In this document: piece by piece, positions 10,773 to 25,844 of the stretch
How positions within the stretch are numbered: position 1 is the stretch's first letter
Layout: each line of letters opens with the position of its first letter
Virus record (IMG/VR): IMGVR_UViG_3300025151_000242
Location: 1-26,913 of that record
Source: a virus
Strand: one strand, 5' to 3'
DNA length: 26,913 nt
Program-made: the position numbers and the translations under genes
The notes under the pieces: model-generated
Told to the model about the DNA's origin: nothing
Database searches by the model: none
What the model saw: only the letters and a program-made list of their open reading frames with translations

Positions 10773-10801
10773 ATATTACCATTTTACTTGCTCGATATCA
10801 A
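10773..10801 (-). promoter_or_regulatory. Sigma70-like promoter before the ejection-protein block
   Basis: On the minus strand TTGATA (10796-10801, five of six bases match TTGACA) is followed after exactly 17 bases by TAATAT (10773-10778, four of six match TATAAT). Transcription would start near 10766 and give a leader of about 29 bases with a strong ribosome site AAAAGGAG before the ATG at 10737. The -35 overlaps the last codons of the GT-A gene. It would let the ejection genes be expressed apart from the sugar-transfer genes. Confidence 0.45.
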
Positions 10802-11659
10802 CTCATCGTAAAACTTACCTTGATATTGGTGTTCTCCAACATGAACTATTGCATCATTTACAAAGGCGTAACATTTGCCTCCAATATCTCTCCATAACTT
10901 ACAAAAAGCAAAATCCTCTCCATTATACGTCTTTTCAACAGGGTCATGCAGGGTATCAAAGAAGTTCCACATATTTGGTTTATTAACATACTCACCATTT
11001 ATAACAGTCTTTTGGACTATCTGTTTATCTGGGTATTTTTCAATCATTTTTTCAATTACTTCTCTTTTAATTAACATGCATCCTGTTGGAGAATCAGTAA
11101 CTTCCATAACTCCATTATCTAAAGTAATGTTATTTACGTCAGGCACTTTCATTGGGTAAGTGTGTAGAGCTCTTCTAATATCATCAGGTGTTTTTATCCT
11201 ACCCTGTTGTATTTTCTTAAAGGCTTTGTCCCACATTAAAGCTTTTAATGGATAGGGTACAGATATAACATGTTTGTCAGCTTTTAACATTGATAGTATA
11301 GATTTACCTTGAAAGTAAATATCAGAATCAATAAAAAGTAAATGTGTAGCTTTTGATTCTAAAAATCCAGCAACAGAAAGATTCCTACCTTGTGTTACTA
11401 AAGATGATTTAATTAAGTGAAAAGATACACTTAGTTTTTTTTTAAAACATAGTTTTTGAAATTCGATTAATGCTTGTGTGTAGTGTATAGATACTTCACT
11501 ATGAACTGGTGTTGCTACAAATATTTCATACTTTTTATAAATATCATCAGATTCTTTCCATAAAGGTGTTCTTGCTTTTTCATAATCAGATTGTGTCTCA
11601 ATGTGAACTTCATTGAGAGTTTGATATGTATCTTCATTAATATAGTTATTGCTTGACAC
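10784..11659 (-). CDS. GT-A fold glycosyltransferase with DxD motif, 291 aa
   Basis: A nucleotide-sugar-dependent glycosyltransferase. Residues 46-52 (IFVATPVHS) look like the first strand of the nucleotide-binding fold. Residues 83-113 carry KSSLVTQGRNLSVAGFL and HLLFIDSDIYF with the metal-binding DSD at 111-113. Later come TGCMLIKREV and GEDFAFCKLWRDIGG (Glu248-Asp249, possible catalytic acid), and His273 in IVHVGEH. The start is a GTG at 11659 with AAAGGAG six bases upstream, overlapping the end of the preceding glycosyltransferase by 14 bases. Donor and acceptor cannot be read from sequence. It closes the second cargo block. Confidence 0.8.
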   Translation of the reverse strand: MSSNNYINEDTYQTLNEVHIETQSDYEKARTPLWKESDDIYKKYEIFVATPVHSEVSIHYTQALIEFQKLCFKKKLSVSFHLIKSSLVTQGRNLSVAGFLESKATHLLFIDSDIYFQGKSILSMLKADKHVISVPYPLKALMWDKAFKKIQQGRIKTPDDIRRALHTYPMKVPDVNNITLDNGVMEVTDSPTGCMLIKREVIEKMIEKYPDKQIVQKTVINGEYVNKPNMWNFFDTLHDPVEKTYNGEDFAFCKLWRDIGGKCYAFVNDAIVHVGEHQYQGKFYDELISSK

Positions 11660-12575
11660 GTAATGCTCCTTTCAAAAAATTTTGCCATTCCATAGCTTTT
11701 TTATCCCAACTATAAAACCTTTTGTAATATTTTTGTTGTTCTTCTAAATGATTTTGTATTACATCTGTGTGCAAGTAGCTTGAACAAATATCTATAGCTC
11801 CTGCAAAACTACTCGCTAATAATTCAAAATCTTTTGAGTAATTCACATATACTGGCCACTCTGCACATGTCTCTGGCAAAGCACCAAAGTTTGTTGTAAT
11901 GACATGAAGACCAGAGGCTAAAGCTTCTAAGGCTGAAACACAAAATGTTTCTTCAAAAATTGATGGGTATACAAATAAATCATAATCTGAAATATGTTCC
12001 TTAATATATTCATTTGGTTTATGGCCTATATAATTTACATTTGGTAATTTTTTTGCTTGTTCAAATAATCCGTCAAAATCTTTTTTTACCTTTTTTTCAA
12101 ACTCATCTCCATAAATTTCAGTAGAACTATAAACGTCCAATGTTACATTTTTGTTAGATATTATTTGCATAGCTAGTAATAAAACATTTAAACCTCTCCA
12201 AGGGGTACAGTGATGTATTATTCTAATTGGATCTCCTTCTTTATAAATTTTTCTTTTTGGAAAACAATCTGTTCCATTTTTTATAACAATTGATTTATCT
12301 TCTGGTATTTGAAAAAAATACCTAAACTTTTCATAGTTCCAATGTGAATTAAAAACATACCAATCATAATCATTATGACGGTTTCTATTTCTAAAAAAAG
12401 GTTGTAAGTTTGGTTGGTCCCAAGAATTTTTTTGCCAAAGAATATTAAGTTTGTTTGGATCTAATGGAACTTTTCCTGGTATAGAAGTACAAATTTGTAC
12501 TTTATCTAATAATTCTTTTGGAACATACTTGTTTAAAAACTCATGTTGTAATTCAGTTGCGCCTCTAGCTTCCAT
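11646..12575 (-). CDS. GT4-like (GT-B fold) glycosyltransferase, short N-terminus, 309 aa
   Basis: The C-terminal half is a group 1 glycosyltransferase domain: RIIHHCTPWRGLNVLLLAM (118-136), LDVYSS, NVNYIGHKP, and FVYPSIFEETFCVSALEALA (201-220) with the E-x7-E pair Glu209/Glu217 that binds the sugar donor, then GLHVITTNFGALPE. The N-terminal acceptor domain is short: it begins at MEARGATELQHEFLNKYV, where relatives usually have one more strand before the glycine-rich turn. An in-frame TAG lies four codons upstream, so the start at 12575 is forced unless there is frameshifting. It overlaps the upstream gene by 11 bases. It pairs with the GT-A enzyme downstream. Confidence 0.83.
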   Translation of the reverse strand: MEARGATELQHEFLNKYVPKELLDKVQICTSIPGKVPLDPNKLNILWQKNSWDQPNLQPFFRNRNRHNDYDWYVFNSHWNYEKFRYFFQIPEDKSIVIKNGTDCFPKRKIYKEGDPIRIIHHCTPWRGLNVLLLAMQIISNKNVTLDVYSSTEIYGDEFEKKVKKDFDGLFEQAKKLPNVNYIGHKPNEYIKEHISDYDLFVYPSIFEETFCVSALEALASGLHVITTNFGALPETCAEWPVYVNYSKDFELLASSFAGAIDICSSYLHTDVIQNHLEEQQKYYKRFYSWDKKAMEWQNFLKGALRVKQ

Positions 12576-13080
12576 AAATATTTTCTAAAATTTTATAACT
12601 TACTATACCTAATTGATTATTGTATTCAGGACTACAACATATAAAAATAATGTCAAATTTTTTATCTTTGAGCACATCAAGGTCATATGTAAAATGATAT
12701 GATTTGATAAATTTATTAAATACTGATTTAAAAGGTTCATTACCTATAGGTTCTGATTCTACGTTAGCTACCCAGGTATAATTAATTTTATTAGGAAATG
12801 CATTTATAAGATGATACAGCCAGTTTCCTTCATCTAAAGTTTGTCTTTTTTCCTCATAGCCTGCATCGTGATGATTATCCACATTAAAAATATCACAGCT
12901 TTCAAAAGTTGAAACATTTTGAAAATTAAAATATTTATTTATGTCGTGATGATTGTAAGAAAATTTTATTGTTTTGTATTTATTTAAGACGGGTATTAGA
13001 TATTTGAAAAGTTCATATTGGTGTTTTAAAGATAATATCCAATCACAGTCAATAGATAAAACACTATACTTATTTATCAT
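12565..13080 (-). CDS. Arginase-fold-like putative metal-binding protein (UPF0489-like), 171 aa
   Basis: The opening SVLSIDCDWIL (Asp11, Asp13), the FSYNHHDINK stretch (His44, His45, Asp46) and IFNVDNHHDAGY (Asp68, His70, His71, Asp72) together resemble the metal-site pattern of UPF0489/arginase-like proteins, where Asp and His bind two metal ions. DEGNWLYHL follows. That suggests a hydrolase acting on a small amide, guanidine or acyl group, but I recognise this only by motif and the substrate is unknown. It is translationally coupled to its neighbours by 11-base overlaps on both sides, between a 2OG oxygenase-like gene and a glycosyltransferase, so a role in the same modification chemistry is plausible. 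Confidence 0.5.
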   Translation of the reverse strand: MINKYSVLSIDCDWILSLKHQYELFKYLIPVLNKYKTIKFSYNHHDINKYFNFQNVSTFESCDIFNVDNHHDAGYEEKRQTLDEGNWLYHLINAFPNKINYTWVANVESEPIGNEPFKSVFNKFIKSYHFTYDLDVLKDKKFDIIFICCSPEYNNQLGIVSYKILENIYGS

Positions 13081-13597
13081 AAGTTAAAAAAATATTTAAG
13101 GTCAACCGTCCGTCTAAAATGTCTTTTCCATGATGACCATAACCTTGGTGCCTCATAATTGATGGAAATTTAATAAATCTGTTTTGTACAAATTTAAAAT
13201 CATTTATTACATTGTCTTGTAAATCATAAATTTTTGTTCCTGAGTTGAGATTAGTATTAGATAAATATATTAAAATAGATTCATCAAAACCTCCTGTGTG
13301 GTCCGAATGTATAAAGTCATTTTGATTACAATCTTCTGTTCTTAAATGTAAATAAGTCGTTGTTGTAAAACTTTTTACATCAATCAAATTATAATTTAAA
13401 ATAAGAAAATGAATGTAGTTATGAAATATTTTACTTTCCTGTAATAGATCACCACTTCTTTTTCCAGGCCAACCAGTTTGTGGTTGTGCTCCAAATTTTT
13501 CTCTCCACTGGTTAAGATCGTATAAAGGAATTTTTTTAACGTCAGGTAAGATGAAATCTATACTTGGAAAAAAACCATCGTATTGAATAATTTTCAT
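13070..13597 (-). CDS. 2OG-Fe(II) oxygenase-like protein (HxD type), 175 aa
   Basis: The double-stranded beta-helix pattern of 2-oxoglutarate/Fe(II) dioxygenases is visible: LHLRTEDCNQNDFIHSD with His97 and Asp99 as first iron ligands, ILIYLSNTNLNSGTKIYD, then FIKFPSIMRHQGYGH with His150 as third ligand and RLTLNIFL with Arg164 positioned to bind 2-oxoglutarate. Such enzymes hydroxylate proteins, nucleotides or small molecules. The N-terminal GWPGKRSGDLL is typical of phage members, from memory. No Shine-Dalgarno; the ATG overlaps the upstream stop (ATGA), so translation is coupled. Substrate unknown. Confidence 0.72.
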   Translation of the reverse strand: MKIIQYDGFFPSIDFILPDVKKIPLYDLNQWREKFGAQPQTGWPGKRSGDLLQESKIFHNYIHFLILNYNLIDVKSFTTTTYLHLRTEDCNQNDFIHSDHTGGFDESILIYLSNTNLNSGTKIYDLQDNVINDFKFVQNRFIKFPSIMRHQGYGHHGKDILDGRLTLNIFLTYDK

Positions 13598-13800
13598 TTT
13601 TGATCTTTTGTTTTAGCACCCATCTCACCTGCTCTTGTTACTTTTACTTCCAAGTCTTGCCTGAAATCATCAGTAGTAGTATCAGTATTGGGATCAGCAA
13701 CATCAGCATCAAAATCAGCTTTAGTAGCATAAATTTTTCCAGTTCTTTTGTGTTTAATAACTTCTTTTGCTTCTGCAGCTATTACAGGTATATCTTTCAT
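13594..13800 (-). CDS. Small conserved phage protein, 68 aa
   Basis: The sequence MKDIPVIAAEAKEVIKHKRT, then GKIYATKADFDADVADPNTD and DFRQDLEVKVTR resembles small proteins of marine phages that pair an HxRTGKxY segment with a DLxxDVxVKV strand, from memory. No function is known. An ATG five codons upstream would add MEGGL, but the ATG at 13800 follows AAGGCGG and forms a TAATG with the upstream stop, so I chose it. It is short, acidic in the middle and has no membrane segment. Confidence 0.7.
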   Translation of the reverse strand: MKDIPVIAAEAKEVIKHKRTGKIYATKADFDADVADPNTDTTTDDFRQDLEVKVTRAGEMGAKTKDQK

Positions 13801-14318
13801 TAATCCGCCTTCCATGGTTTTTTTTCATTAAAGTTAAATGCGATAGCATATTTAACTCCCTCTTTAATAGTTTCTGTATAATGTTGTAATATTGCAGAAA
13901 AGAAAAGTAAATTGTTTTTTTTAACTTGTATTACTGTTTCTATTTCTGGAAATATAATTTTATTGTTACAATCATTTAAATATAAAATTCCTGATACAAA
14001 ATTTTCACCATGATTATGTAAAATAGTTTTATCGTTTTTTTCCATTTTTATACCCCAAGCACTTTCTAAAAAGGTATTTAATCCAAAATCAATTTTATTT
14101 TGTTCATAAGCCGTTTTAAGTATATTGGTAAATTTTTTATCTTCTAAGAATAACTTCCAACTTGTCATGCTGCCCTTAACATTGGTAGCATTGCATAATT
14201 CTTTATCAATATTACTTTCTATTTTGTTAATAAAGTAATCAGTATCAACATCTGTCACCTCAACCTGATAAAAGAAAACTGGTATAAAAGCTTTCTTTTC
14301 ATAATGCCTAATGATCAT
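13800..14318 (-). CDS. 2OG-Fe(II) oxygenase-like protein (HxH variant), 172 aa
   Basis: It resembles the 2OG-FeII_Oxy_5 group: SAWGIKMEKNDKTILHNHG carries His101 and His103 where classic enzymes have His-x-Asp, followed by FVSGILYLND, then LLFFSAILQHYTE with His146 as distal ligand and GVKYAIAFNFN with Lys156 where an Arg often binds 2-oxoglutarate. The replacements may alter iron binding or activity, though HxH members exist in this group. There is no Shine-Dalgarno and a 52-base gap lies upstream, containing TATAAA at 14330-14335 without a good -35. Substrate unknown. Confidence 0.65.
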   Translation of the reverse strand: MIIRHYEKKAFIPVFFYQVEVTDVDTDYFINKIESNIDKELCNATNVKGSMTSWKLFLEDKKFTNILKTAYEQNKIDFGLNTFLESAWGIKMEKNDKTILHNHGENFVSGILYLNDCNNKIIFPEIETVIQVKKNNLLFFSAILQHYTETIKEGVKYAIAFNFNEKKPWKAD

Positions 14319-14370
14319 GATGTTGCTAATTTATATCTAAGATAATTCCAATTGGTTTCATTTATGGGTA

Positions 14371-14502
14371 TCATGCTCTACCTTGTCTATTGTATTTCTT
14401 ATACGATCTTTTTTCTGATTTTGAAAGTCTTTTTTTATGTCTTCTAGGCCTTTTCCTGGGTTTTGGTCTTGGGACAAAATTTACAAATTTTCTTTTAGCC
14501 AT
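14371..14502 (-). CDS. Very basic 43-aa phage protein
   Basis: This short frame reads MAKRKFVNFVPRPKPRKRP, continues RRHKKRLSKSEKRSYKK and ends YNRQGRA. Twenty of 43 residues are Lys or Arg. I recall similar peptides with the ending KxYNRQGR in cyanophages and other marine phages, which argues for a true gene. Its ATG shares one base with the stop of the upstream oxygenase-like gene (TAATG). Nucleic-acid binding, for example in the packaged head, is a reasonable guess from charge alone. Confidence 0.7.
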   Translation of the reverse strand: MAKRKFVNFVPRPKPRKRPRRHKKRLSKSEKRSYKKYNRQGRA

Positions 14503-15116
14503 TATTTTACCGGATTACCAAATAACATTGTGTAGCTAACTCTTCTATTATAATCTCCATATTTTGTTGATACATCATCTGTAGCATGAAATAAAGCCCC
14601 ATCAAAAAACACAGCTCTATTACATTTATAATCTATTCTCGTAACTTCATGTTTTTCTTTTTGTAAAAGTTTATCTATACACCCATCTTTATTACCGTTC
14701 CATTGCTCTCTAATCCAATCATCAGGTGGTTTTTTATTAACAATTAACAAACCATTTTTAGTTTTATCTAATAATGACTTCTCAGGTGTAACCCATATAT
14801 TAACATTTACACTTGAAGGGTCAGCATGGAAACCAACTCCTTTTGCTATATTATCATATATAAAAGACCAGGCTCTTTTAAAATCATTTAATTTAAATCT
14901 ATTTATTAATTCATTTGATAAATCTGCAGTGAACTTATCATTGTCGTACGTATAATTTATAGCAGCATAATCACGATAATGATCTTCAAATTCTTTAGCT
15001 GTTTGCATTCTTAATCTTAAGAAATTTACAACACTATTATCTAAAATATCATCTACTATAATTATTGAATCAGATATTTTATTTATCTTAAGATTGTTAT
15101 TTAATAGATTATCCAT
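14502..15116 (-). CDS. 2OG-Fe(II) oxygenase-like protein (HxD type), 204 aa
   Basis: The iron-binding triad is clear: GVGFHADPSSVNVNIWVTP with His97 and Asp99, and NRAVFFDGALFHATD with His177, then NRRVSYTMLFG with Arg191/Arg192 for 2-oxoglutarate. The spacing fits the core fold. The insert with DDWIREQWNG (about 132-141) lies between the two halves. The start overlaps the structural gene upstream by 8 bases, and AGGAGA sits almost on top of the ATG, so coupling is likely. It heads the second cargo block, directly behind small structural genes. Substrate unknown; a protein or sugar hydroxylase is the general expectation. Confidence 0.75.
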   Translation of the reverse strand: MDNLLNNNLKINKISDSIIIVDDILDNSVVNFLRLRMQTAKEFEDHYRDYAAINYTYDNDKFTADLSNELINRFKLNDFKRAWSFIYDNIAKGVGFHADPSSVNVNIWVTPEKSLLDKTKNGLLIVNKKPPDDWIREQWNGNKDGCIDKLLQKEKHEVTRIDYKCNRAVFFDGALFHATDDVSTKYGDYNRRVSYTMLFGNPVK

Positions 15117-15459
15117 TCTCCTGAGATCTATCTATCTGCGCATAACTTATAACACCTTGAATTGTGTTACTTCCTGTGGCTGCTTGAACTGTTATTGCAT
15201 CACCTGCCTCTAAATTTAAACCTTGAGGTGTGGCATTTACTTGAGTTTTTGCAGCTACATCATCTCTAAAAAATTCATATTCAACACTCGAGTCAGATGA
15301 ATCAACAAAGTTCATGTTGACTAACACAGCTGAAGAAGCATCATTGTTAGCACAATAAACACTTTTGACTATAACTGTTGCATCACTCGGGCATGTAAAT
15401 ACTGTAGTCTTACCCGTACTAGCTTGTTTGTAACCTTGATTTTTGTATCTTATTGTCAT
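15109..15459 (-). CDS. Small virion structural protein, beta-rich, 116 aa
   Basis: The protein is rich in Val, Thr, Ser and Asn with strand-like stretches: TVFTCPSDATVIVKSVYCAN, AVLVNMNFVDSS, GLNLEAGDAITVQAATGS and IQGVISYAQI. This is the pattern of small beta-sandwich virion proteins; a trimeric tail or decoration subunit is likely. I recall similar proteins next to the tail tube gene in other marine podoviruses. ATG overlaps the preceding stop as ATGA. No enzyme motif. Virion assignment is inferred. Confidence 0.6.
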   Translation of the reverse strand: MTIRYKNQGYKQASTGKTTVFTCPSDATVIVKSVYCANNDASSAVLVNMNFVDSSDSSVEYEFFRDDVAAKTQVNATPQGLNLEAGDAITVQAATGSNTIQGVISYAQIDRSQENG

Positions 15460-15620
15460 GTTAAAAAGTAATTAAAAGCATCTTGTTCATTTTTCAATTC
15501 TTGTTGATAAGTTGTATTTAACTTATCTTGCATCGTTCGTAAAGACTGATTTATCTGTCTTTGGTTTTCCTCTGTATATTCAACAGAAGGTTCAGGTATT
15601 ACGATGTCTACCCTAGCCAT
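15456..15620 (-). CDS. Small phage protein, Gln-rich helix, 54 aa
   Basis: A longer frame is open further upstream, but its N-terminal part is out-of-frame reading of the preceding gene. The ATG at 15620 gives MARVDIVIPEPSVEYTEENQ followed by RQINQSLRTMQDKLNTTYQQ, a short strand and then an amphipathic helix. This matches a small protein I recall next to tail genes of marine podoviruses. It overlaps the upstream gene by 8 bases and the downstream ATG by 4. Function unknown. Confidence 0.65.
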   Translation of the reverse strand: MARVDIVIPEPSVEYTEENQRQINQSLRTMQDKLNTTYQQELKNEQDAFNYFLT

Positions 15621-16134
15621 GTAAAGCTGCTCCTCGTTCAGCAGAAGAACCAGTGCTTGCATTACCTCCGCTACCACTTCCACCATTACCACCATATTGG
15701 CCTCCTCTGTAGGCATCTTTTGTGGTAACAGTTCCAAATTGTCCTTTGTTTATTCTGTCTTGTAAGTCTCTTGTCTGTTCTCTTCTTATTGCTTTCTCTG
15801 TTCTTTTTGCTTGTAAATAATCTGCTATAGTTTTTGATCTTCCAAAAGTACTTGTTTGAAGACGATTATTAAATCCTGATAAAGCACCAATGCCTAAACC
15901 AGCTGGACCTAAAAAACCAAAACCTAAAGGGCCGGTGAGAGTTGAACTCAATCCGAATGCTTTGCCTAATGCAGGTAAACCAAGTTTACTTGCAGCCACA
16001 TCTATTGCTTTTTGTTTTGCCATATTAGTTATGGCTGTTCCAATAACATCTCTCATATCAGGAACTTGTTGCTCTGGTGGAGCAAATGCAGCAATACCCA
16101 TGGGTTGCGTACCAAAACCTAATTCATTTTCCAT
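15613..16134 (-). CDS. Small virion-associated protein with hydrophobic glycine-rich core, 173 aa
   Basis: Residues 50-88 are hydrophobic and glycine-rich (LGLPALGKAFGLSSTLTGPL, GFGFLGPAGLGIGALSGF), followed by a basic helix (LQAKRTEKAIRREQTRDLQD) and a low-complexity Gly/Ser tail (GGQYGGNGGSGSGGNAS). The layout resembles the N-terminal parts of the large ejection-type proteins at 3-11 kb. Its ATG shares a base with the stop of the tail tube gene (TAATG). A minor virion or injected protein is likely; no homologue with known function recognised. Confidence 0.55.
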   Translation of the reverse strand: MENELGFGTQPMGIAAFAPPEQQVPDMRDVIGTAITNMAKQKAIDVAASKLGLPALGKAFGLSSTLTGPLGFGFLGPAGLGIGALSGFNNRLQTSTFGRSKTIADYLQAKRTEKAIRREQTRDLQDRINKGQFGTVTTKDAYRGGQYGGNGGSGSGGNASTGSSAERGAALHG

Positions 16135-18287
16135 TATCCCCTCATTCCGTCTGGTTGAATATCTGCTCTAAAAGTCCCATAACGCCAACTTTGATCAGTA
16201 GATGTGTTTTCTATTTTCAAACTTGCAAATCTTGTTCTAGCTCTAGTGTCAACTTTGTTAGTTGTGTTATTAATTGTAAACGGACCCAAGGGTGATGAGG
16301 TTGCGGTGTCCGTTGGAAAACTTCTTAGATTAATTGTTACTCTTGCATCACCTGTCAAAACTTTAAAATCTGGAATAAATCTTCTCATACTCATAAAAAA
16401 TTGGCCATCGCCTCCAATGTTTAAATCGAAATCACCTGATTGAATAAAAGCAGGAATTGCTGTTTTTGCTCCTGTAGCATCTACTTGATTCACACCTTTT
16501 TCATGTTCGTAATATATTGTAGACCCATTGGTATTTGTTACACCTTGGATAGTTGGAAAGGTCGGAGTGCCTGTAGAATTAAATTCAGTTGCATAAGGGT
16601 GATCGTATAGATTAGCATCCACATAGGTAGTTCTTGCTAAAGAACCTGTCGTCCAAACCCCGCTTTGATAATTGTAGGTTACACACCTATCAACGTTGTC
16701 ACTACCTGATTTTGGATAGAACCAAACTATCTCTTCGTATAGTGTATATAATCCAGCATATACCGATTCTCCATTATCATAATTAATTCCTAAGTTATCC
16801 CCTTTAGTTGTAAATACAAAGTCTTCAACTAAACAAGGTAAAGCTTTAACAGTACCATCGTAAACAAAAAAACCTCCAGCTTCACCCATCCAATATACTG
16901 CTCCATTTACATATTTTATTGAGTGTTGCCCTATTGCTCCACAATTTGAACCAACTTGTCTAACAGAAAAAGTGAAAGGTGGCCCAACAAATTGAATCAC
17001 ATATGCAGCACTGTCAGTCAAAACAAGAGTATAATCTTTACCTTTTACAGCTCCTACGATTTTTGTTCCAGAGTCTAATCTAAATGACCCTGCTGTGTTT
17101 GTTGAAGTTGCTGTATAATTATTAATATTTTCTTGATCTGAAAACCTAATGAATAATTTATCTTGAGTGCCACCACTTCCTATAGTTGTCTCTGTACCTA
17201 ACATAAATAGGTGTCTATCTCTGTCTGAAACTAGTGACATAACTGATGCAGTCGGTGCATTTGAAATAACTACCGCTCTCGTAGTAAGAGCATTCGAATC
17301 TGCATTAATAGGGTTCCATGAAAATGATCTACCATTTTTAATAGTTGCAATTAGTTGTTGACCAAAATTATCTAAGGACCAAGAAGCAGGATCAATTGAT
17401 AAAGTTTGTGATAAAGAAGCTTGACCCCAACCAGTAAAAAATTCAACTCCTGCTCCATCTGAATGTGCAGATCTAGTGCCCGCAGCTGCTCTTGTAATGC
17501 CAGTTAAATCATTAGAAGAAATACCAGTATAGGAAATAAATTCTGCTCCAACTTTTATAGTTCCCGAAGTAGGAAAACCAGTAGTTGATGATAATGTTAT
17601 CGATGTACCAGAACCTCCAGTACCAGCTGTATCATCTAAAAGAGCACCATTTAAAGTTGAAAAAACTTGCTGACCGCCACCCCATAAAGCTGTGCCCCAA
17701 CCAAATCCGTATGTTTGTGATAATGACCCTACTTTTTCGTATGGATTAATTGTGGCAGCACCACTTCCGTTTACAGTTGTCCCTGCTGCCGATGCCATGG
17801 TAATTGTAAAATCATCACTACCAGGAACAGAAATTACTTCAAAAGTATTTGTTTCAAAGTCTGCTGCAGAATAACCTGCACCTACTGGTGGTGTGACTGA
17901 TGTAAATGTAAATAAATCACCCGCCTCTAGTCCATGAGCTGGTTTGTTAACAGTCACAGTAGCTGATGTATTAACGGTATCAAATGTGCAACCTGTTATA
18001 GCTGTGGCTAATGGCGTAATGTCATAAAATGATCCCTCATAATATATTACTAAAACTCTATTAGTGCCTATTGCAGCGTATCTTCTTCCATCTAAATCTG
18101 CCCAAACAAATTGTTCTCTTGCAGCACCAACTATAGTGCCTGATAAAAGTTGTTCCCAACCACCAATCTTTTCTGGAAGTCCATATCTGAATCTGACAAA
18201 ATCACCGTCTGTCCATTGACCTTCGGCTCCTACTTCAGTGACTTGTTTATTAAATCCAGGTGCTATTTGTACATTTGTTAAAGGCAT
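16134..18287 (-). CDS. Large tail tube/hub protein, 717 aa
   Basis: The start MPLTNVQIAPGFNKQVTEVG, then WTDGDFVRFRYGLPEKIGGW and RRYAAIGTNRVLVIYYEG, is characteristic of the big tail protein of marine podoviruses that forms the tube or hub below the adaptors (compared with P22 gp10-like proteins). Repeated short beta-strands around 120-560 suggest propeller-like blades, with SLVSDRDRHLFMLG and VYWMGEAGGFFVYDGT as typical blade sequences. The C-terminus ends WRYGTFRADIQPDGMRG. No Shine-Dalgarno precedes the ATG; a near-consensus promoter ends six bases before it, so a leaderless mRNA is predicted. It separates the two cargo blocks. Confidence 0.78.
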   Translation of the reverse strand: MPLTNVQIAPGFNKQVTEVGAEGQWTDGDFVRFRYGLPEKIGGWEQLLSGTIVGAAREQFVWADLDGRRYAAIGTNRVLVIYYEGSFYDITPLATAITGCTFDTVNTSATVTVNKPAHGLEAGDLFTFTSVTPPVGAGYSAADFETNTFEVISVPGSDDFTITMASAAGTTVNGSGAATINPYEKVGSLSQTYGFGWGTALWGGGQQVFSTLNGALLDDTAGTGGSGTSITLSSTTGFPTSGTIKVGAEFISYTGISSNDLTGITRAAAGTRSAHSDGAGVEFFTGWGQASLSQTLSIDPASWSLDNFGQQLIATIKNGRSFSWNPINADSNALTTRAVVISNAPTASVMSLVSDRDRHLFMLGTETTIGSGGTQDKLFIRFSDQENINNYTATSTNTAGSFRLDSGTKIVGAVKGKDYTLVLTDSAAYVIQFVGPPFTFSVRQVGSNCGAIGQHSIKYVNGAVYWMGEAGGFFVYDGTVKALPCLVEDFVFTTKGDNLGINYDNGESVYAGLYTLYEEIVWFYPKSGSDNVDRCVTYNYQSGVWTTGSLARTTYVDANLYDHPYATEFNSTGTPTFPTIQGVTNTNGSTIYYEHEKGVNQVDATGAKTAIPAFIQSGDFDLNIGGDGQFFMSMRRFIPDFKVLTGDARVTINLRSFPTDTATSSPLGPFTINNTTNKVDTRARTRFASLKIENTSTDQSWRYGTFRADIQPDGMRG

Positions 18288-18292
18288 GGCAT

Positions 18293-18321
18293 ATTATAAC
18301 ATTGTATATTTGATATGTAAA
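18293..18321 (-). promoter_or_regulatory. Near-consensus sigma70 promoter with leaderless start for the tail tube gene
   Basis: On the minus strand TTTACA (18316-18321) and TATAAT (18293-18298) are separated by exactly 17 bases, a match of 11 of 12 to the sigma70 consensus. The last base of the -10 is only six bases from the A of the ATG at 18287, so transcription should begin at or next to the start codon. No Shine-Dalgarno is present. The 47-base gap is one of the few in this region. Confidence 0.6.
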
Positions 18322-18334
18322 TTTACTGTAAGCC

Positions 18335-18553
18335 CTATTTGTCTTCAAAAATATTATCTTCATCCTTTAAAACACCATGTTCTCTAGCATCTCCAAACAG
18401 TCGGGTGGATTCTGATATAAATTTTAATAAATGTGAAGAAAATGCGTAGGTGCTTTTTCTATCTAAAATTATACAACCTCTCAATAGAATTGATATTTTT
18501 TCTTTAAAAGAAAGCTCTATTTTTAATTTTTCTTTGTCGTGTTTAAAAATCAT
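18335..18553 (-). CDS. Small conserved phage protein, 72 aa
   Basis: It begins MIFKHDKEKLKIELSFKEKI and continues LRGCIILDRKSTYAFSSHLL, with a Lys/Glu-rich N-terminal helix and an acidic C-terminus (EHGVLKDEDNIFEDK). I recall similar small proteins in cyanophages and other marine phages, without a known function. It is the last gene of the first cargo block and lies two bases after an oxygenase-like gene; no Shine-Dalgarno. No membrane segment. Confidence 0.65.
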   Translation of the reverse strand: MIFKHDKEKLKIELSFKEKISILLRGCIILDRKSTYAFSSHLLKFISESTRLFGDAREHGVLKDEDNIFEDK

Positions 18554-18555
18554 AT

Positions 18556-19077
18556 TTATATAGTTACATTAGTGTTGAAAGATATAATTATTTTTTCATC
18601 ATTACAAGTATTTATAGGAGATCCATGTGGCAAGAAACCAGGAAAACTTAAAATCATTCCTTCATTAATCTCTATATTTAATTGTTTCTTACTTAAGGTA
18701 AATATTTTTGTATTCACATTTTTATTAGGAAGAGACACATAAAGTATATTAGTAAAATTAGCTCCTGGATGAGTATGTGGGCTATCGTAACTATTTTTTT
18801 TATAAAGATGAAACCATAAATTTTCTACGGTAATTGTTTTTAAATTGTTATCATTAGTAAAAGATTTAAAAAATTTTTTTAGTATATTTTTTTCTAAATA
18901 TTTTACATATTTTCTTTTATTGTTATCTCCTTGATATCTATCAGTATAAGATACACATTCTCCACCTTCATTAGTTGTAATACCTTCAGCGGTTTTGATT
19001 AAACTTATTATATTTTCTTTATGTAAATAGAAATTTTCTATTTGATACTTAAAAAAAATATCATTTTCATTTATCAT
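18556..19077 (-). CDS. 2OG-Fe(II) oxygenase-like protein (HxH variant), 173 aa
   Basis: It fits the 2OG-FeII_Oxy_5 pattern: ITVENLWFHLYKKNSYDSPH then THPGANFTNILYVSLP with His101 and His103 as paired ligands (HxH in place of HxD), and EGMILSFPGFLPHGSP with His151 as distal ligand. The usual 2-oxoglutarate Arg is replaced by Lys162 in EKIIISFNT. Two starts are possible, 19104 and 19077; neither has a Shine-Dalgarno. I chose 19077 because it overlaps the upstream stop by only 11 bases, like other junctions here; the longer form adds MDVPITVKK. It shares its HxH and Lys features with the gene at 13800-14318. Substrate unknown. Confidence 0.65.
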   Translation of the reverse strand: MINENDIFFKYQIENFYLHKENIISLIKTAEGITTNEGGECVSYTDRYQGDNNKRKYVKYLEKNILKKFFKSFTNDNNLKTITVENLWFHLYKKNSYDSPHTHPGANFTNILYVSLPNKNVNTKIFTLSKKQLNIEINEGMILSFPGFLPHGSPINTCNDEKIIISFNTNVTI

Positions 19078-19621
19078 TTTTTTGACAGTGATGGGCACGT
19101 CCATCTAGTTCGAAATTTTTGTAAGGACCATTTGCGTCAACATAATGTAAAAAACATTGAGTGTGATAATTGCCTTGTAGTTTTTGTCGTCCATGAGAAA
19201 ATTCTCTACCTAAATATATTAAACCATCGCCAGGAAATAAATGAATTTCTTCTTCATCAATAATAATTGGCCAGTTAGATCCATCACTATCAATTGCTAC
19301 TGTCACACTTATTTCACAAGCTTCTCTATCTTTATGAAATAATAATTCAGATTGATATGTGTACATTCTCCAATAAGAATAAGTTGGTAATAATTGTAAT
19401 TTTGTTAAGTCTTCTATTTTACTTTTTTTATTTATTAATAAACTTTCAAAAATTTCATCATATTGAAATACTGTATCTAAATTAGTTACTTTAGAATTAT
19501 TATCAAAATTTGTTGTGTTATTGAGATGTTTAAATTTACAATATAATTTTAATAAATCTTTTTCTTCTTTTGTTAAAAAATCTTTTATTTTTTTATATTT
19601 AAAATTATTTAAAGTGCCCAT
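19067..19621 (-). CDS. 2OG-Fe(II) oxygenase-like protein (HxD type), 184 aa
   Basis: YSYWRMYTYQSELLFHKDRE holds His96 and Asp98; ACEISVTVAIDSDGSNWPII follows; then HLFPGDGLIYLGREFSHGRQ has the distal His143 and Arg145. The succession CEISVT, WPI, GDGLIY and H-x-R is one I recall from oxygenase-like proteins of marine viruses. The N-terminal third is helical and lysine-rich. Its ATG lies 13 bases inside the end of the upstream oxygenase-like gene and has no Shine-Dalgarno, so it depends on coupling. The region is clearly more AT-rich than the structural genes. Substrate unknown. Confidence 0.68.
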   Translation of the reverse strand: MGTLNNFKYKKIKDFLTKEEKDLLKLYCKFKHLNNTTNFDNNSKVTNLDTVFQYDEIFESLLINKKSKIEDLTKLQLLPTYSYWRMYTYQSELLFHKDREACEISVTVAIDSDGSNWPIIIDEEEIHLFPGDGLIYLGREFSHGRQKLQGNYHTQCFLHYVDANGPYKNFELDGRAHHCQKNDK

Positions 19622-20199
19622 GATACTATTGAATATCTAACTCCAGATTTTACAGGTTCAACACAATGTGGATATAAAAAATTACTCGGAAACACAACTA
19701 ATTTATTTGCTTTAGGTTCTATTTTCACTTCATGTTTTTCATTAGGTGTACAAAAAGAAAGTGCACCTCCTTCATAGTTATCGTTTATAAAAAAAACTAA
19801 ACTTAATGTTCTTGGTAATTTTCTGTGATGGTCTGTGTGATAATTATAATGCCCACTCTTTTCGTATTTTAAAACATCAATATTTGTTAGCTGAAGATCT
19901 ACAAAGTGTTTAGATTTTATTTCTGCAAAATATTTTTGGATACTTTTATTGAATATGTTTTTTAAAAAGTTAGCCCAGTGTACTTCAGTCATATTATCCC
20001 AATCAGTGCCTAGACCCCAACACATGACATCTCTAATTTCTTTGTTTACACCCTCATTACCTTTTTTACCTAAAATAGATCCATCCGTAAAATTAGAAAA
20101 CTTAGATTGACATACGCTTAACAAATTTGTGAGTTTGTTTTTAGGTAAAACATTTTCAAAAATTATTACAAAATCATTTAATTTATTTTCTATTTCCAT
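19609..20199 (-). CDS. 2OG-Fe(II) oxygenase, prolyl-4-hydroxylase/PKHD-like (HxD type), 196 aa
   Basis: This is the best-matching oxygenase of the set. KYEKSGHYNYHTDHHRKLPR gives His121 and Asp123; TLSLVFFINDNYEGGALSFC is the typical major-sheet segment; NKLVVFPSNFLYPHCVEPV has His178; and GVRYSIVSW has Arg188. It resembles prolyl-4-hydroxylase-like and PKHD enzymes that hydroxylate peptide side chains. An in-frame TTG lies five codons upstream, but the ATG at 20199 is preferred. The start overlaps the DUF6065-like gene by 10 bases at a run of eight A residues. No Shine-Dalgarno. Protein target unknown. Confidence 0.82.
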   Translation of the reverse strand: MEIENKLNDFVIIFENVLPKNKLTNLLSVCQSKFSNFTDGSILGKKGNEGVNKEIRDVMCWGLGTDWDNMTEVHWANFLKNIFNKSIQKYFAEIKSKHFVDLQLTNIDVLKYEKSGHYNYHTDHHRKLPRTLSLVFFINDNYEGGALSFCTPNEKHEVKIEPKANKLVVFPSNFLYPHCVEPVKSGVRYSIVSWAL

Positions 20200-20942
20200 A
20201 TTTTTTTTGACCAAAACTTTCTTTTGTATATATCAAATATTCTTATGTTGTGCAAAAATCCTAATTTAGTGCCAATGTCTTTATGAGTATTAAAGCTCAT
20301 GTTCCACTCTTGTCTTTTAAAAGGGATAACCTGCACATATGGTGTGCCTATTCTATATAATTTATTTAAGCTTTCATCTTTTCCAAGATTAAAAACAAAA
20401 GGAAAATTTATTTTTGCATTGTAAGTATCTGTATCAACGATGCCTGGTAGAATACTAAACTTACTTTCTCTATGCATGGGTGGTATAAATAAACAAGAAT
20501 AACCAGGAGGAGTCGTAATCGTCCACGGATTTAAAATTTTAGGTATGTTTTTACCAAAGTTTTTTTTACCATACAAAGAATCTGGGCCACCAACTTGTTT
20601 AACGTCATGCTCTTCTGTATGAGCATTTAAATTATATCCTTTCATCTGAGAAATTGTGCCATCTAAACCTTGTCCAAATTGAATCAAATTAATTTTTTCT
20701 TTTAACTCTTCTTCATAAAAATTTATTTTTAAAAAAAGATCTTGGGGTAATCTTAATAAATATCCTGCAGTAATAGAATCTAAAACAGGAACACAAGATT
20801 TAACACTTAAATCTTTTGGGTTTGGAGTTTGAAATTTTGGAACTTTTTTAAACCATTCAGGAATATCAACTTTTGCAGGAATAGGACGAAGTTTTTCCTC
20901 ATCCACCAAATCTTGATGAATAGTAAATTTTATGTCTGGCAT
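20190..20942 (-). CDS. DUF6065-like protein, 250 aa
   Basis: The features that suggest the DUF6065 group are an N-terminal PIPAKVDIPEWFKKVP (20-35), a CVPVLDSITAGYLLRLPQD segment (50-68), NPWTITTPPGYSCLFIPP (138-155) and LPGIVDTDTYNAKINFPFVF (165-184). I recall such proteins beside 2OG oxygenase-like genes in marine phages. The biochemical function is not established; an enzyme-like beta-rich fold is expected. The C-terminus is basic (DIYKRKFWSKKIWK) and is encoded across an A8 run where a -1 shift would enter the next gene. It heads the first cargo block, seven bases after the putative assembly gene's stop. Confidence 0.55.
   Translation of the reverse strand: MPDIKFTIHQDLVDEEKLRPIPAKVDIPEWFKKVPKFQTPNPKDLSVKSCVPVLDSITAGYLLRLPQDLFLKINFYEEELKEKINLIQFGQGLDGTISQMKGYNLNAHTEEHDVKQVGGPDSLYGKKNFGKNIPKILNPWTITTPPGYSCLFIPPMHRESKFSILPGIVDTDTYNAKINFPFVFNLGKDESLNKLYRIGTPYVQVIPFKRQEWNMSFNTHKDIGTKLGFLHNIRIFDIYKRKFWSKKIWK
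20201..20208 (-). other. A8 run at overlapping gene junction, possible -1 slippery site
   Basis: Eight consecutive A residues on the minus strand lie at the end of the DUF6065-like gene in the phase A-AAA-AAA, and the start of the next gene follows at once. A -1 shift would pass from the first frame into the second and give a fused protein. No downstream pseudoknot was established, and A-runs are common in this AT-rich genome. Confidence 0.25.
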
Positions 20943-20948
20943 AAATCA

Positions 20949-21368
20949 TTATGGTAATTCTAGAATACTTTTGCTAGAAAAACCACTCTGACTATTAAAC
21001 CATACTTGAAAATTGTCAATTGGAAAAGTTAATGTTGATGTATCAATAGATTGTAAATTGTTTCTGTATTGTGTCCATTCACTATCATTTGAATTTGCTA
21101 AAAAATCATTTACAAGATGAAGTTGATTAGCTATTTCTTTTTCAAATCCCTCTTTAGTATGAGACCAACTTTCTTCATCTGATATCACTACGTTATCACC
21201 ATTTAAAACAGCTTTTTTAGTTTGGTTAGCTACACTAGCATAATCAGAATCATTAGCTTCTTTAGATTTACCACCATTTAAAAGTAATAGATGATGATCT
21301 TTAAGCGCATCCGTTGGAGCGAGTTTATGTAATTTATTTTCAGAATCAAATATAAAATGTTTTGCCAT
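20949..21368 (-). CDS. Possible tail-fibre assembly/chaperone-like protein, 139 aa
   Basis: The N-terminus (MAKHFIFDSENKLHKLAP) is followed by an acidic helical region. The C-terminal part has DSEWTQYRNNLQSIDTSTLT then FPIDNFQVWFNSQSG, similar in form to the W-x2-YR-x2-L-x-I pattern near the end of many tail-fibre assembly proteins. These act as chaperones for folding or attaching the fibre. It lies two bases after the tail fibre gene, the usual place for such a gene. The match is by motif only and the family is diverse. Confidence 0.5.
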   Translation of the reverse strand: MAKHFIFDSENKLHKLAPTDALKDHHLLLLNGGKSKEANDSDYASVANQTKKAVLNGDNVVISDEESWSHTKEGFEKEIANQLHLVNDFLANSNDSEWTQYRNNLQSIDTSTLTFPIDNFQVWFNSQSGFSSKSILELP

Positions 21369-21370
21369 AA

Positions 21371-22582
21371 TTAACTTCCACTATTATCATAAAATATTAA
21401 ACCACCCTTTTTACCTGAATTACCAGGAGTCTGTTTTGGCACGTTAGCACCACCAGTCAAGATGCTACTATCTGCAAGAACGAAAGTGCTACCTGAAGAG
21501 TTTGCAGTATAAAAGGCTGTACCAGAACCTACTGTGCCATTCGTTCCAGGTGTTCCAGGCGTCTCCATGCTTCCTGCATTACCTCTGTTACCACCGTTCA
21601 AAGAAAATAAATTTGTAATTGATGTCGAGCCTCCGTTTTGACCTGCTTGTGTCATAGCACCACCACTTCCAGCAGCTCCTACAGCGTAAGGTTGTGAGAA
21701 AGGCGCAGAAATAGTTCCTTGAAAGATTCCAAAAATTCCAGATCCTCCTGATGATCCTCCTCCATTACCAAATTGGACACCTCCAGCTCCACCTCCTCCT
21801 CCAGAGGCAGCGTAGGCAATATATCGAGTGCCATTTGCAGTAGCAGTTCCAGATGCAGGACCATAGGCTGCAACAGAGCCAATAAAGTTTCCTCCACCTG
21901 CAGTTCCACTAGAAGCAGATGTTAATCGACCTTGAGCATCTACAGTAATAGACGCAAGAGTGTATGAACCTGCTGATACAGATGTATCTGCTAATTGATC
22001 GGCACCCACTGCATCATTTGCTATCATGGCTTGTTGTACTTGGACTTCACCAATTGTACCAGCTGAGACAGCACCTAAAACTCTGTTGTTTGTTGTTGTG
22101 TCTTGCATTTTTGCAAATGTCACAGCATCATCTGCTATTTGAGCAGTTCCTATAGTGCCGCCTAAAGTATCTAACGATACTTCATTTAAGTTTGTTCCAT
22201 CTGAATAAGCAGCATAAATTTTTTGTGCGTCAGGAGTAAAACCTGTCCCCGATGCAGTTTTGATTGTGAGGTTAGTTGGATTAGTTACAGCGGTGCAATC
22301 AAAAATATAAAATTTTTCTATTGAATCTGGTATGGTACATATAGTTGATGCACCTGCAGTAATTGTTGCAAATTTTATAACCAGATTTCTTGCATTAGAA
22401 ATAGTACCATCTGACATTGCAAGAGCAGTTGTGCCTCCAGATGATAGTGTTACTTGTTCAAAACCTGCTATTGCTTGTTGAACTAAATTTAAATTATTGT
22501 TTGTCTTATCACCCCAAGTACCGGCATTTTCACCAGTAGTCATTAATTCTAGTTTTAAATCACTTGAATAGTTAGATGCCAT
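21371..22582 (-). CDS. Tail fibre protein with glycine-rich receptor-binding tip, 403 aa
   Basis: The N-terminal MASNYSSDLKLELMTTGENA, then GTWGDKTNNNLNLVQQAIAG, is a common phage tail-fibre attachment domain. A shaft with Asp/Ala repeats follows (GGTIGTAQIADDAVTFAKM, SYTLASITVDAQGRLTSASS). From about 229 to 345 the chain is glycine-rich (SGGGGGAGGVQ, NGGGSSGGSGIFG, PYAVGAAGSGG), resembling Gly-rich tip domains built from polyglycine helices that carry receptor loops. Residues 342-353 (TPGTPGTNGTVG) have glycine at every third position like collagen. AAGGAG precedes the ATG and a promoter candidate lies at 22609-22637. It should bind the host surface. Confidence 0.85.
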   Translation of the reverse strand: MASNYSSDLKLELMTTGENAGTWGDKTNNNLNLVQQAIAGFEQVTLSSGGTTALAMSDGTISNARNLVIKFATITAGASTICTIPDSIEKFYIFDCTAVTNPTNLTIKTASGTGFTPDAQKIYAAYSDGTNLNEVSLDTLGGTIGTAQIADDAVTFAKMQDTTTNNRVLGAVSAGTIGEVQVQQAMIANDAVGADQLADTSVSAGSYTLASITVDAQGRLTSASSGTAGGGNFIGSVAAYGPASGTATANGTRYIAYAASGGGGGAGGVQFGNGGGSSGGSGIFGIFQGTISAPFSQPYAVGAAGSGGAMTQAGQNGGSTSITNLFSLNGGNRGNAGSMETPGTPGTNGTVGSGTAFYTANSSGSTFVLADSSILTGGANVPKQTPGNSGKKGGLIFYDNSGS

Positions 22583-24082: not shown

Positions 24083-24748
24083 TTAATATGTTGTGTTTGG
24101 AGCAGGTGATTGAACTTTTACTCTTGGTACTCCATCATCATACTCCCCACGTCTTCTTCTACCCATTTGTTGTAGGGCAAAATTCTGTAATTCTTCATTA
24201 TACTTATCAAAATATAGTTTGTACATATCCTGGGGCCCTTTTAAAAATCTAAAAGCTTCAGCTAAGACGCCATGTAAAAGCATAGATTCTTGATATGTTG
24301 ATAAAAAAGTATTGTTTGTTGAAGTAAAATTTGGTGCGTCTTTAATATAATTTATTTGAACAGTGTCAGCTGCAGCAGGCGTAGGAGCTACAATAATATT
24401 AAAATCGTCATAATTAGCATAATATTTAGGTGTCCCCTGCGCACCTGTTCCATTATACTCAGTAATAAAACTTGTGTCTCTCTTTTCTAAAAATTCTCTA
24501 TTACCACTTGAGTCAACTCGCTCAACAGATCTTAAAATTAATAAATCAGAGGGCATTGATACTCCTCTGTTGCCAGCTGTAAAATTTGAAGTAGCATATT
24601 TTCTTAAATCATCATAATCTACTTTTCCTGCTACATCTAATTCTACGTTTCTTATAAAATCTTGTATGATTGAATCTGATAAAACATTACTATCAACTTC
24701 AGTGTAGTTTCTTACTTGTGTTAAAAATGCTGCGTGTGTAACTGCCAT
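24083..24748 (-). CDS. Head-tail adaptor-like protein, 221 aa
   Basis: It is helical at the N-terminus (FLTQVRNYTEVDSNVLSDSI, IQDFIRNVELDVAGKVDYDD), has a short beta part (VSMPSDLLILRSVERVDSSG, YYANYDDFNIIVAPTP) and ends in helices (LSTYQESMLLHGVLAEAFRF). This resembles adaptor proteins that form the ring below the portal in podoviruses (SU10-adaptor or T7 gp11-type), with the C-terminal tail reaching the tube. The ATG shares a base with the stop of the 132-residue gene (TAATG). Assignment rests on fold-like pattern and position. Confidence 0.6.
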   Translation of the reverse strand: MAVTHAAFLTQVRNYTEVDSNVLSDSIIQDFIRNVELDVAGKVDYDDLRKYATSNFTAGNRGVSMPSDLLILRSVERVDSSGNREFLEKRDTSFITEYNGTGAQGTPKYYANYDDFNIIVAPTPAAADTVQINYIKDAPNFTSTNNTFLSTYQESMLLHGVLAEAFRFLKGPQDMYKLYFDKYNEELQNFALQQMGRRRRGEYDDGVPRVKVQSPAPNTTY

Positions 24749-25148: not shown

Positions 25149-25844
25149 TTATACTCCACTCGGATAGAATGATTGAGGTGAAAGATAAACAGATGTTCTT
25201 TGACCATCTTCATCTAAAGCTCTTTTCAATTCATCTTCATAAATTAATTTATTTTGTTGAACCATCTGTGGTGCAACTTTCATTGATAAGTAGTAAGCTA
25301 AACCTGCACACATACACGGTAAAAATCTATAAACCACATCTGCATCATTTGTATAAACACCAGCATCTTCAATTCTTTTAATAACATAATATTTTAATGT
25401 TGTATAAGTGCTCAAATTTGGTGCTTGATATAAATAAATTTTAGGAGTTGTTTTTCTTTCAACATAATATTGTGATGGTTGGCCAGTAGCAAGTTTGTTT
25501 GGCAAAGCAGCATATGCAGATCTATCAATTTTAGTTAAAGATATGTCTTGTGTATTTGCATCATCGCTGGCAGTTGCTGTAGATGAAACAAAAGCCTCTA
25601 AAACATCACTGACATCCGATGCAACAGAATACTCAGCTTGTCCTGATACCATTGCATTTTCATTTAGTTCTACTTTCCAAAGATGAATACCACGATTACC
25701 CCATTCAGCAAATAATAAATCTAAACTTCTTCGAGCAGATTTTAAATCATAACCAGATGTTGTAGTAATTGCACACCTTTGATAACCCTCTTGAATTATA
25801 TCATCAATGTTTAAATTAAACGATGTAGTTCCTGATGTTGCCAT
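25149..25844 (-). CDS. Head-tail connector protein, P22 gp4-like, 231 aa
   Basis: The N-terminus (LNIDDIIQEGYQRCAITTTS, then GYDLKSARRSLDLLFAEWGN and RGIHLWKVE) is a helical bundle typical of P22 gp4-like tail accessory factors, and KIYLYQAPNLSTYTTLKYYV supplies the following strands. The helices LPCMCAGLAYYLSMKVAPQM and QNKLIYEDELKRALDE complete the pattern. Such proteins bind under the portal ring and close the filled head. Its ATG shares a base with the stop of the 100-residue gene (TAATG). Good match by order and length; the partner portal is outside the window. Confidence 0.7.
   Translation of the reverse strand: MATSGTTSFNLNIDDIIQEGYQRCAITTTSGYDLKSARRSLDLLFAEWGNRGIHLWKVELNENAMVSGQAEYSVASDVSDVLEAFVSSTATASDDANTQDISLTKIDRSAYAALPNKLATGQPSQYYVERKTTPKIYLYQAPNLSTYTTLKYYVIKRIEDAGVYTNDADVVYRFLPCMCAGLAYYLSMKVAPQMVQQNKLIYEDELKRALDEDGQRTSVYLSPQSFYPSGV

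Follow-up and report, generated by a model that had tools for sequence, protein, structure and literature searches.

The window analysed here, the whole 26,913 nt of IMG/VR record IMGVR_UViG_3300025151_000242 (a 26.9 kb viral contig), carries six 2-oxoglutarate (2OG)-Fe(II) oxygenase-like genes, termed OX1 to OX6, in two blocks on either side of a structural gene, close to a tail-fibre gene, together with two glycosyltransferase genes. All genes whose coordinates are given below lie on the minus strand. By its sequence, the window belongs to an HTVC023P-type pelagiphage, a phage of the ocean's commonest bacteria, because the 717 aa structural gene is 62% identical to HTVC023P gp72 and the gene order is shared with HTVC023P and HTVC027P. 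The product of this gene (16134–18287), the anchor of our gene maps, matches phrog_3287 'virion structural protein' (4.6e-84), is also similar to HTVC027P gp75 and is a homologue of a 'stabilization protein'. The first-pass annotation had named it as the tail tube gene, a name that none of the matches found here bears out.

The same annotation had recognized six proteins with an H-x-D or H-x-H motif and a distal His, and all six open reading frames (ORFs) are indeed present. A search against Pfam 2OG profiles, suggested as a check on each protein, placed OX2, OX4 and OX6 above the gathering score, and left OX1 and OX3 with sub-threshold matches to DUF6445 alone and OX5 with no relevant match. 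OX6 (19609–20214) is a prolyl-hydroxylase-type (PKHD/P4H) protein that matches 2OG-FeII_Oxy_3 (2e-19), and its best matches among solved structures in the Protein Data Bank (PDB) are the HIF prolyl hydroxylases. OX2 (13800–14318; H101-x-H103 and H146) and OX4 (18556–19104; H110-x-H112 and H160) match 2OG-FeII_Oxy_5 (1.5e-6 and 4.7e-9, respectively). In OX1 (13070–13597), H97-x-D99, H150 and R164 are invariant in eight sequences; in OX3 (14502–15116), which has eight relatives in viral contigs and a weak match to phrog_1644, H97-x-D99, H177 and R192 are invariant in three. The start codons of OX4 (19104 or 19077) and OX6 (TTG at 20214 or ATG at 20199) are ambiguous.

The metal triad is intact in every sequence aligned for OX1 (8/8), OX2 (39/39, as H-x-H), OX3 (3/3), OX4 (32/32, as H-x-H) and OX6 (181/181, with H-x-D in 115 and H-x-E in 66), and in 124 of the 125 for OX5. 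Such near-invariance in every family would not be expected by chance. A conserved Arg or Lys that can anchor 2OG follows the distal His at +14 in OX1, +10 in OX2, +14/15 in OX3, +11 in OX4 and +10 in OX6. OX1 and OX3 are linked to OX2, OX4 and OX6 by profiles: iterated profiles started separately from OX1, OX2, OX4 and OX6 converged on one set (454–501 shared ORFs), the OX1 profile recovered both OX3 homologues present among the sequences searched, and the OX4 profile recovered 123 of 164 OX5 members. As judged from these sequences, all six proteins are members of the 2OG-Fe(II) oxygenase superfamily with intact metal sites. They form six non-orthologous families, which fits the earlier suggestion of several target sites better than it fits recent duplication.

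Among the oxygenases, PHROGs matches were found to phrog_81, phrog_61, phrog_274, phrog_1644 and phrog_2954. The labels 'DNA endonuclease V', 'minor coat protein' and 'ferrochelatase' (phrog_274, phrog_1644 and phrog_2954) appear from sequence comparison to mislead. The 'DNA endonuclease V' label of phrog_274 is doubtful because the S-PM2 protein so named exceeds the Pfam cut-off for 2OG-FeII_Oxy_3. The names of phrog_2954, phrog_3531, phrog_274 and phrog_1644 all sit on families that match the 2OG-type oxygenases of the window, and phage records carry the same names.

OX5 and the 'ferrochelatase' label

OX5 (19067–19621) is the most diverged of the six oxygenases and matches phrog_2954 'ferrochelatase' over its full length (4.1e-43). 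An AlphaFold2 model built from an alignment of 71 sequences (pLDDT 95) gave a double-stranded beta-helix, the fold that the first-pass annotation had set as a check on its assignments. A Foldseek search with this model returned 340 PDB chains at E<=1e-3, the best listed being prolyl hydroxylases, PiuC and other 2OG enzymes, and alignment to PHD2 with VIA-align gave a Z-score of 16.3 and an rmsd of 2.9 over 166 residues. At the sequence level, a profile search of solved-structure sequences with OX5 gave no match at E<=1.

OX5 had no match to the ferrochelatase domain PF00762 at E<=1, and the S-PM2 and Mosig 'ferrochelatases' had none at E<=0.1. Together with the model, a beta-helix oxygenase as opposed to an alpha/beta chelatase fold, this led us to reject OX5 as a ferrochelatase. 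The label is wrong because the high-confidence model has a prolyl-hydroxylase fold; OX5 is, on the basis of its predicted structure, a sixth hydroxylase-fold enzyme. When 16 annotated or homologous proteins from cyanophages and pelagiphages were aligned to OX5, H-x-D was found in 15/16 and the distal H-x-R in 16/16; the aligned sequence of the sole exception, an S-T4 entry, begins after the H-x-D stretch. Members of PHROG 2954/3531 from S-PM2, P-SSM7, Mosig and HTVC008M share the H-x-D...H-x-R motif of OX5; at odds with the label are the missing ferrochelatase domain and the prolyl-hydroxylase fold predicted for OX5.

Both proteins of the OX5–OX6 pair resemble prolyl 4-hydroxylases (HIF PHD2, Pseudomonas putida P4H and PBCV-1 vCPH) and PiuC, OX6 by sequence and OX5 by fold. 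OX6 has the canonical triad and 2OG-binding Arg of these enzymes, whereas OX5 lacks a conserved Arg or Lys at +8 to +17 after the distal His; it has instead an invariant Arg at +2, with Gln155 and His159 invariant or near-invariant. Arg145 is predicted to take the anchoring role in OX5. Protein hydroxylation would be a reasonable activity for the pair, because OX6 is closest to prolyl hydroxylases among solved structures and OX5 is predicted to fold like one.

In field studies, 'ferrochelatase' (PHROG 2954) and 2OG oxygenases are scored as distinct auxiliary functions, and their pairing has been discussed in iron and heme terms (PMC9599517, PMC11561400). If OX5 is a 2OG-fold enzyme, the pairing is one of two members of a single superfamily, often adjoining and sometimes fused, as in the OX5–OX6 type fusion of S-SCSM1, and the heme reading therefore falls.

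The gene content itself (oxygenases, 'ferrochelatase' and glycosyltransferases) was already largely known, and what is added here is the re-reading of OX5 and the co-inheritance with the fibre tip described below. For the HTVC023P lineage, Wittmers et al. 2022 (PMC9599517) listed eight 2OG genes that are not orthologous to one another, frequently accompanied by one or two 'ferrochelatases', as well as three glycosyltransferases, with no tested function. Marine phages carry from one to >20 2OG oxygenase genes each, likewise with no tested function (PMC9602691). A role of the cyanophage copies in 2OG signalling or in the repair of DNA was put forward by Sullivan et al. 2010 (PMC3037559), and a 2024 time series (PMC11561400) handled PHROG 61 and PHROG 2954 as two enriched auxiliary categories. 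In the open-access literature, we found no paper that suggests hydroxylation of the fibre or amends the label 'ferrochelatase'.

Inheritance of the core pair with the fibre tip

Gene maps around the structural gene were drawn for loci from four scans. The order in the window's clade is fibre, F139, a dUTPase-like gene, OX6, OX5, cargo, structural gene and V116, followed by cargo, a 43 aa ORF, cargo, S73, cargo, GT4 and GT-A. At least two oxygenases lie on the fibre side in 55/55 loci closed on that side. On the other side, one to four further oxygenases are present in 18/30 loci closed there and the GT4 and GT-A glycosyltransferases in 30/30. The stretch around the structural gene of one relative (L002) is 95% identical to the window at the DNA level, yet OX3, OX2, OX1 and an arginase-like gene are missing from this relative, and the cargo genes therefore come and go. 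OX1–OX4 are optional genes, gained and lost at cargo sites (OX3 rarely present), and OX5–OX6 form a core pair (19067–20214). The HTVC023P-type pelagiphages HTVC023P (MN698239), HTVC027P (MN698241) and 023Pt_psg01 (MW574966) (PMC9599517) share the lineage and the gene order around the structural gene, with annotated 2OG genes, a 'ferrochelatase' and, in the two isolates among them, glycosyltransferases at corresponding places. The window's clade differs from them in having OX6–OX5 right behind the fibre and its small partner genes, and in its set of cargo oxygenases.

The fibre gene (FIB, 21371–22582) encodes a tail-fibre-type protein (phrog_31104, 7e-26) with a conserved N-terminal part and a variable, Gly-rich C-terminal tip (27% Gly); Pfam Gly_rich_2 was matched in 14/28 homologues. 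The fibre tip contains more Pro-Gly (172 versus 126 +/- 10) and (Gly-x-x)3-Gly (97 versus 38 +/- 7) than shuffled sequences, and the Gly-x-x pattern was not found in the other virion-region proteins tested. A Gly-rich tip is the kind of sequence on which prolyl hydroxylases can act. The next gene, F139 (20949–21368), encodes a small, fast-evolving protein with no family match, possibly a fibre partner or chaperone. Its candidacy as a known tail-fibre assembly protein was dropped: the protein of the window matched Caudo_TAP weakly (E 0.06), but 41 homologues did not reproduce this match. Between F139 and OX6 lies the gene for a dUTPase-like beta-clip protein (20190–20942; phrog_7084, 5.3e-39).

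Co-variation was examined in the window's clade, where rank correlations of pairwise protein distances placed the fibre tip, F139, the dUTPase-like gene, OX6 and OX5 in one block (0.39–0.65), and GT4 and GT-A in a second (0.84). One border of the first block falls within the fibre gene, whose N- and C-terminal parts correlate at 0.22, and the other separates OX5 from the structural gene (0.24). In partial Mantel tests conditioned on the structural gene (2000 permutations, giving a floor of p = 0.0005), OX6 co-varied with the fibre tip (r = 0.50) and F139 (0.65), and OX5 with the tip (0.34), all at p = 0.0005; the correlation of OX6 with the N-terminal part of the fibre was just 0.17. When conditioned on other genes, OX6 followed F139 (0.47) and the tip (0.31) over its immediate neighbour gene (0.13, p = 0.07). 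OX5, OX6 and the fibre tip recombine as one block, between the conserved N-terminal part of the fibre and the 717 aa structural gene.

The first-pass annotation had envisaged a system in which oxygenases and glycosyltransferases act together. Its enzymes are well founded: besides the 2OG-type oxygenases and their intact metal sites, the GT-A-type glycosyltransferase (10784–11659; phrog_1574, 7.9e-34; 76% identity to HTVC023P gp78) has invariant D111-x-D113 and G247-E248-D249 in 96 aligned sequences, and the GT4-type glycosyltransferase (11646–12575; Pfam Glycos_transf_1, 1.2e-15) an invariant E209-x7-E217 in 108. The coupling is another matter. In the psg01 clade, GT4/GT-A were found in 0/33 closed loci, although oxygenase clusters lie upstream, and no adjoining glycosyltransferase is annotated beside the 2OG clusters of the pelagimyophages Mosig and HTVC008M, the podovirus HTVC033P and the cyanophages S-PM2 and S-RIM32. 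Co-occurrence across phages, put forward as a check, therefore went against the coupled system. Detection relied on profiles from the window's own proteins, by which an unrelated glycosyltransferase could be missed.

Conversely, where glycosyltransferases are present, the stretch from the structural gene to them is free of oxygenases in 12/30, 21/21 and 16/18 loci of three clades. Among these, the HTVC023P clade has its glycosyltransferases in 21/21 closed loci; the HTVC027P clade has them in 18/18, and its one to seven oxygenases, most of them in opposite orientation, stand in the interval from fibre to structural gene. With the structural gene as the conditioning variable, partial Mantel correlations in the window's clade were 0.04 for OX6 with GT4, 0.00 for OX6 with GT-A and -0.15 for OX5 with the glycosyltransferases, and 0.84 between GT4 and GT-A. 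Across three clades, the tested oxygenases showed no residual co-variation with GT4 or GT-A, and the two glycosyltransferases tracked each other. In the HTVC023P clade, the oxygenase that precedes the structural gene likewise followed the fibre (0.41) but showed no co-variation with the glycosyltransferases. The OX5–OX6 pair is inherited with the fibre tip, not with the glycosyltransferases. Coupling of oxygenases and glycosyltransferases is not supported, because oxygenase clusters occur without these glycosyltransferases and GT4/GT-A evolve as a separate pair.

Candidate targets of the oxygenases

We tentatively favour a model, plausible though short of probable, in which the late genes encode two independent modification layers and the fibre-tip cassette supplies the target of OX6 and probably OX5. 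The first layer would be the cassette itself, which comprises the Gly-rich C-terminal tip, F139, the dUTPase-like gene, OX6 and OX5, and recombines as a unit. We infer that OX6 and probably also OX5 act in the host cytoplasm on freshly synthesized fibre tips, where they hydroxylate side chains (proline being the likeliest) with the help of host 2OG, O2 and Fe(II), and that the hydroxylated tip may then fold, resist damage or bind the receptor. OX1–OX4 would be interchangeable accessory oxygenases that probably hydroxylate other proteins or sites. The second layer would be the GT4 and GT-A pair, moving and evolving on its own, which may glycosylate a virion or host-surface acceptor with no requirement for hydroxylation. 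The fibre tip is the best-supported, but unproven, candidate target of the core pair, and its co-inheritance with OX5–OX6 singles out one protein for study in existing isolates. A narrower version, in which OX6 and OX5 are prolyl hydroxylases devoted to the Gly/Pro-rich receptor-binding tip of the phage itself and are swapped with it as one cassette, strikes us as rather unlikely; if true, it would be the first case of a phage hydroxylating its adhesin, and OX5 would be non-canonical, anchoring 2OG differently.

The setting of related genes is consistent with a target at the fibre. Clusters of 2OG genes with OX5-family members have genes for fibre, neck or baseplate proteins beside them in Mosig, HTVC008M, HTVC033P, S-PM2, S-RIM32, S-SCSM1, S-RIM44 and Sf-FP1, and clusters in the unrelated marine phages Mosig, HTVC033P, S-PM2, S-RIM32 and S-SCSM1 are beside fibre genes. 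For the coupled system first proposed, the nearest working precedent is the mimivirus L230 collagen lysyl hydroxylase/glucosyltransferase (PMC9546862), a viral enzyme that hydroxylates and then glycosylates a viral fibrous protein; there, one protein performs both steps on collagen, whereas here separate genes evolve independently.

Several observations weigh against this model. In cyanophages P-SSM7, Syn30 and S-CAM22, the OX5 family is flanked by dam and the clamp-loader gene gp62, in ACG-2014f it is away from tail genes, and in S-CREM1 it likewise has no tail gene annotated nearby; fibre association is therefore common but not universal. The usual 2OG anchor is missing from OX5. In the HTVC027P clade, with its nearly uniform fibre tip and its oxygenases mostly in opposite orientation, co-variation of oxygenases with fibre or glycosyltransferases was not found, and the fibre link was not replicated. 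The dUTPase-like gene, which has no known fibre role, co-varies with the tip nearly as strongly (0.45). Since neighbouring genes can co-vary by linkage alone, as the dUTPase-like gene may illustrate, linkage explains part of the block co-variation, and perhaps most of it. To our knowledge, T-even phages carry no such oxygenases. Gly-rich fibre tips are found in these phages too (PMC12892980): the tip of the window's fibre resembles the hypervariable, glycine-rich receptor-binding tip of T-even gp38, and differs in being the C-terminal part of the fibre gene with oxygenase genes behind it.

It is possible, but on balance doubtful, that the oxygenases are auxiliary genes acting on the host, hydroxylating EF-Tu, ribosomal proteins or regulators, or altering the 2OG and iron economy during takeover. 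The best Foldseek matches of OX5 include the P. putida P4H, solved in complex with EF-Tu, published proposals regard these genes as metabolic (PMC3037559, PMC9599517, PMC12753301), and the OX5 family adjoins replication genes in some cyanophages. General takeover would not lead us to expect placement in a late structural operon, as many as seven copies in the interval from fibre to structural gene, or exchange together with the fibre tip. A role in superinfection exclusion, in which both kinds of enzyme would change glycans or lipids of the SAR11 envelope and so keep progeny from being trapped, seems unlikely: GT4 is weakly similar to lipopolysaccharide and exopolysaccharide glycosyltransferases, but OX6 and OX5 are similar to protein hydroxylases, the region showed no sugar-nucleotide genes, and the two sets of genes do not co-vary.

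This absence of co-variation also bears on the system first proposed, in which hydroxyls made by the oxygenases would receive sugars from the two glycosyltransferases, on fibres or the host surface. Shared transcription direction and neighbourhood in the window's clade speak for it, as does the mimivirus precedent (PMC9546862), and a broad-specificity glycosyltransferase would escape a co-variation test; given that oxygenase clusters occur without these glycosyltransferases, and that many loci with the glycosyltransferases have no oxygenase on that side of the structural gene, we nevertheless consider it quite improbable. The genes also recall TET/JBP-type DNA hypermodification followed by glycosylation. 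Phage TET systems generally combine an oxygenase with a glycosyltransferase. Moreover, other clades of the lineage have known genes for thymidine hypermodification (PMC9599517). However, none of the six oxygenases matched Tet_JBP at E<=1, a result on which we rejected this explanation, and the fibre-region location, away from the polymerase, and the prolyl-hydroxylase type of OX6 make it highly improbable.

Neighbouring genes and other features

The first-pass annotation had described the 20190–20942 product as DUF6065-like, for which no Pfam match was found at E<=1. A profile search of solved-structure sequences likewise gave no match at E<=1. The predicted structure (pLDDT 86) resembles trimeric dUTPases (best Z 10.2), and the motif PGIVDTDT is like dUTPase motif III; the possibility of a seventh oxygenase was discarded on the strength of this model. 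Relatives in the annotated phage collection were solely from haloarchaeal tailed viruses, and in the four examined the gene lies between the fibre operon and a thymidylate synthase or ribonucleotide reductase gene.

The protein encoded at 12565–13080, an optional cargo gene, had been called arginase-like. It had no Pfam or PHROG match, but invariant D11-x-D13, H44 and D68-x-H70-H71-D72 in eight sequences leave it as a small putative metalloprotein with arginase/UPF0489-like motifs. The gene was found in just seven loci (the window, L038, L077, L274, L298, L317 and L323), usually immediately before GT4.

Conserved small proteins separate the cargo sites. V116 (15109–15459), of 116 aa, follows the structural gene (262 loci), and S73 (13594–13815), of 73 aa, lies between cargo sites (166 loci). 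A conserved noncoding element suspected at 14371–14503 proved to be an ORF for a very basic 43 aa protein (14371–14502), conserved at the DNA level in 118 loci and corresponding to HTVC023P gp75. Its sequence is MAKRKFVNFVPRPKPRKRPRRHKKRLSKSEKRSYKKYNRQGRA; its start overlaps the OX3 stop, and it was absent from the first-pass gene list.

Promoter-like and terminator-like sites in the window were no more numerous than in shuffled sequences, and an Rfam search gave no match at gathering thresholds. The single strong promoter-like site (18321–18293, minus strand; TTTACA-17-TATAAT with an extended -10, 11 of 12) lies immediately before the structural gene, which starts at 18287. In P-SSM7, Syn30 and S-CAM22 (loci L341, L342 and L344, around 8.0–8.6 kb), the OX5 family is in a replication setting, between DNA methyltransferase and gp62 genes, unlike the fibre setting elsewhere. 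The genes at 24083–24748 and 25149–25844 both match Pfam SU10_adaptor, suggesting a duplicated or two-part head–tail adaptor. Finally, G+C content is 25–30% in the oxygenase stretches (18556–20214 and 12565–14318) and 35–41% in most flanking structural genes, a difference compatible with separate acquisition or weaker codon constraint.

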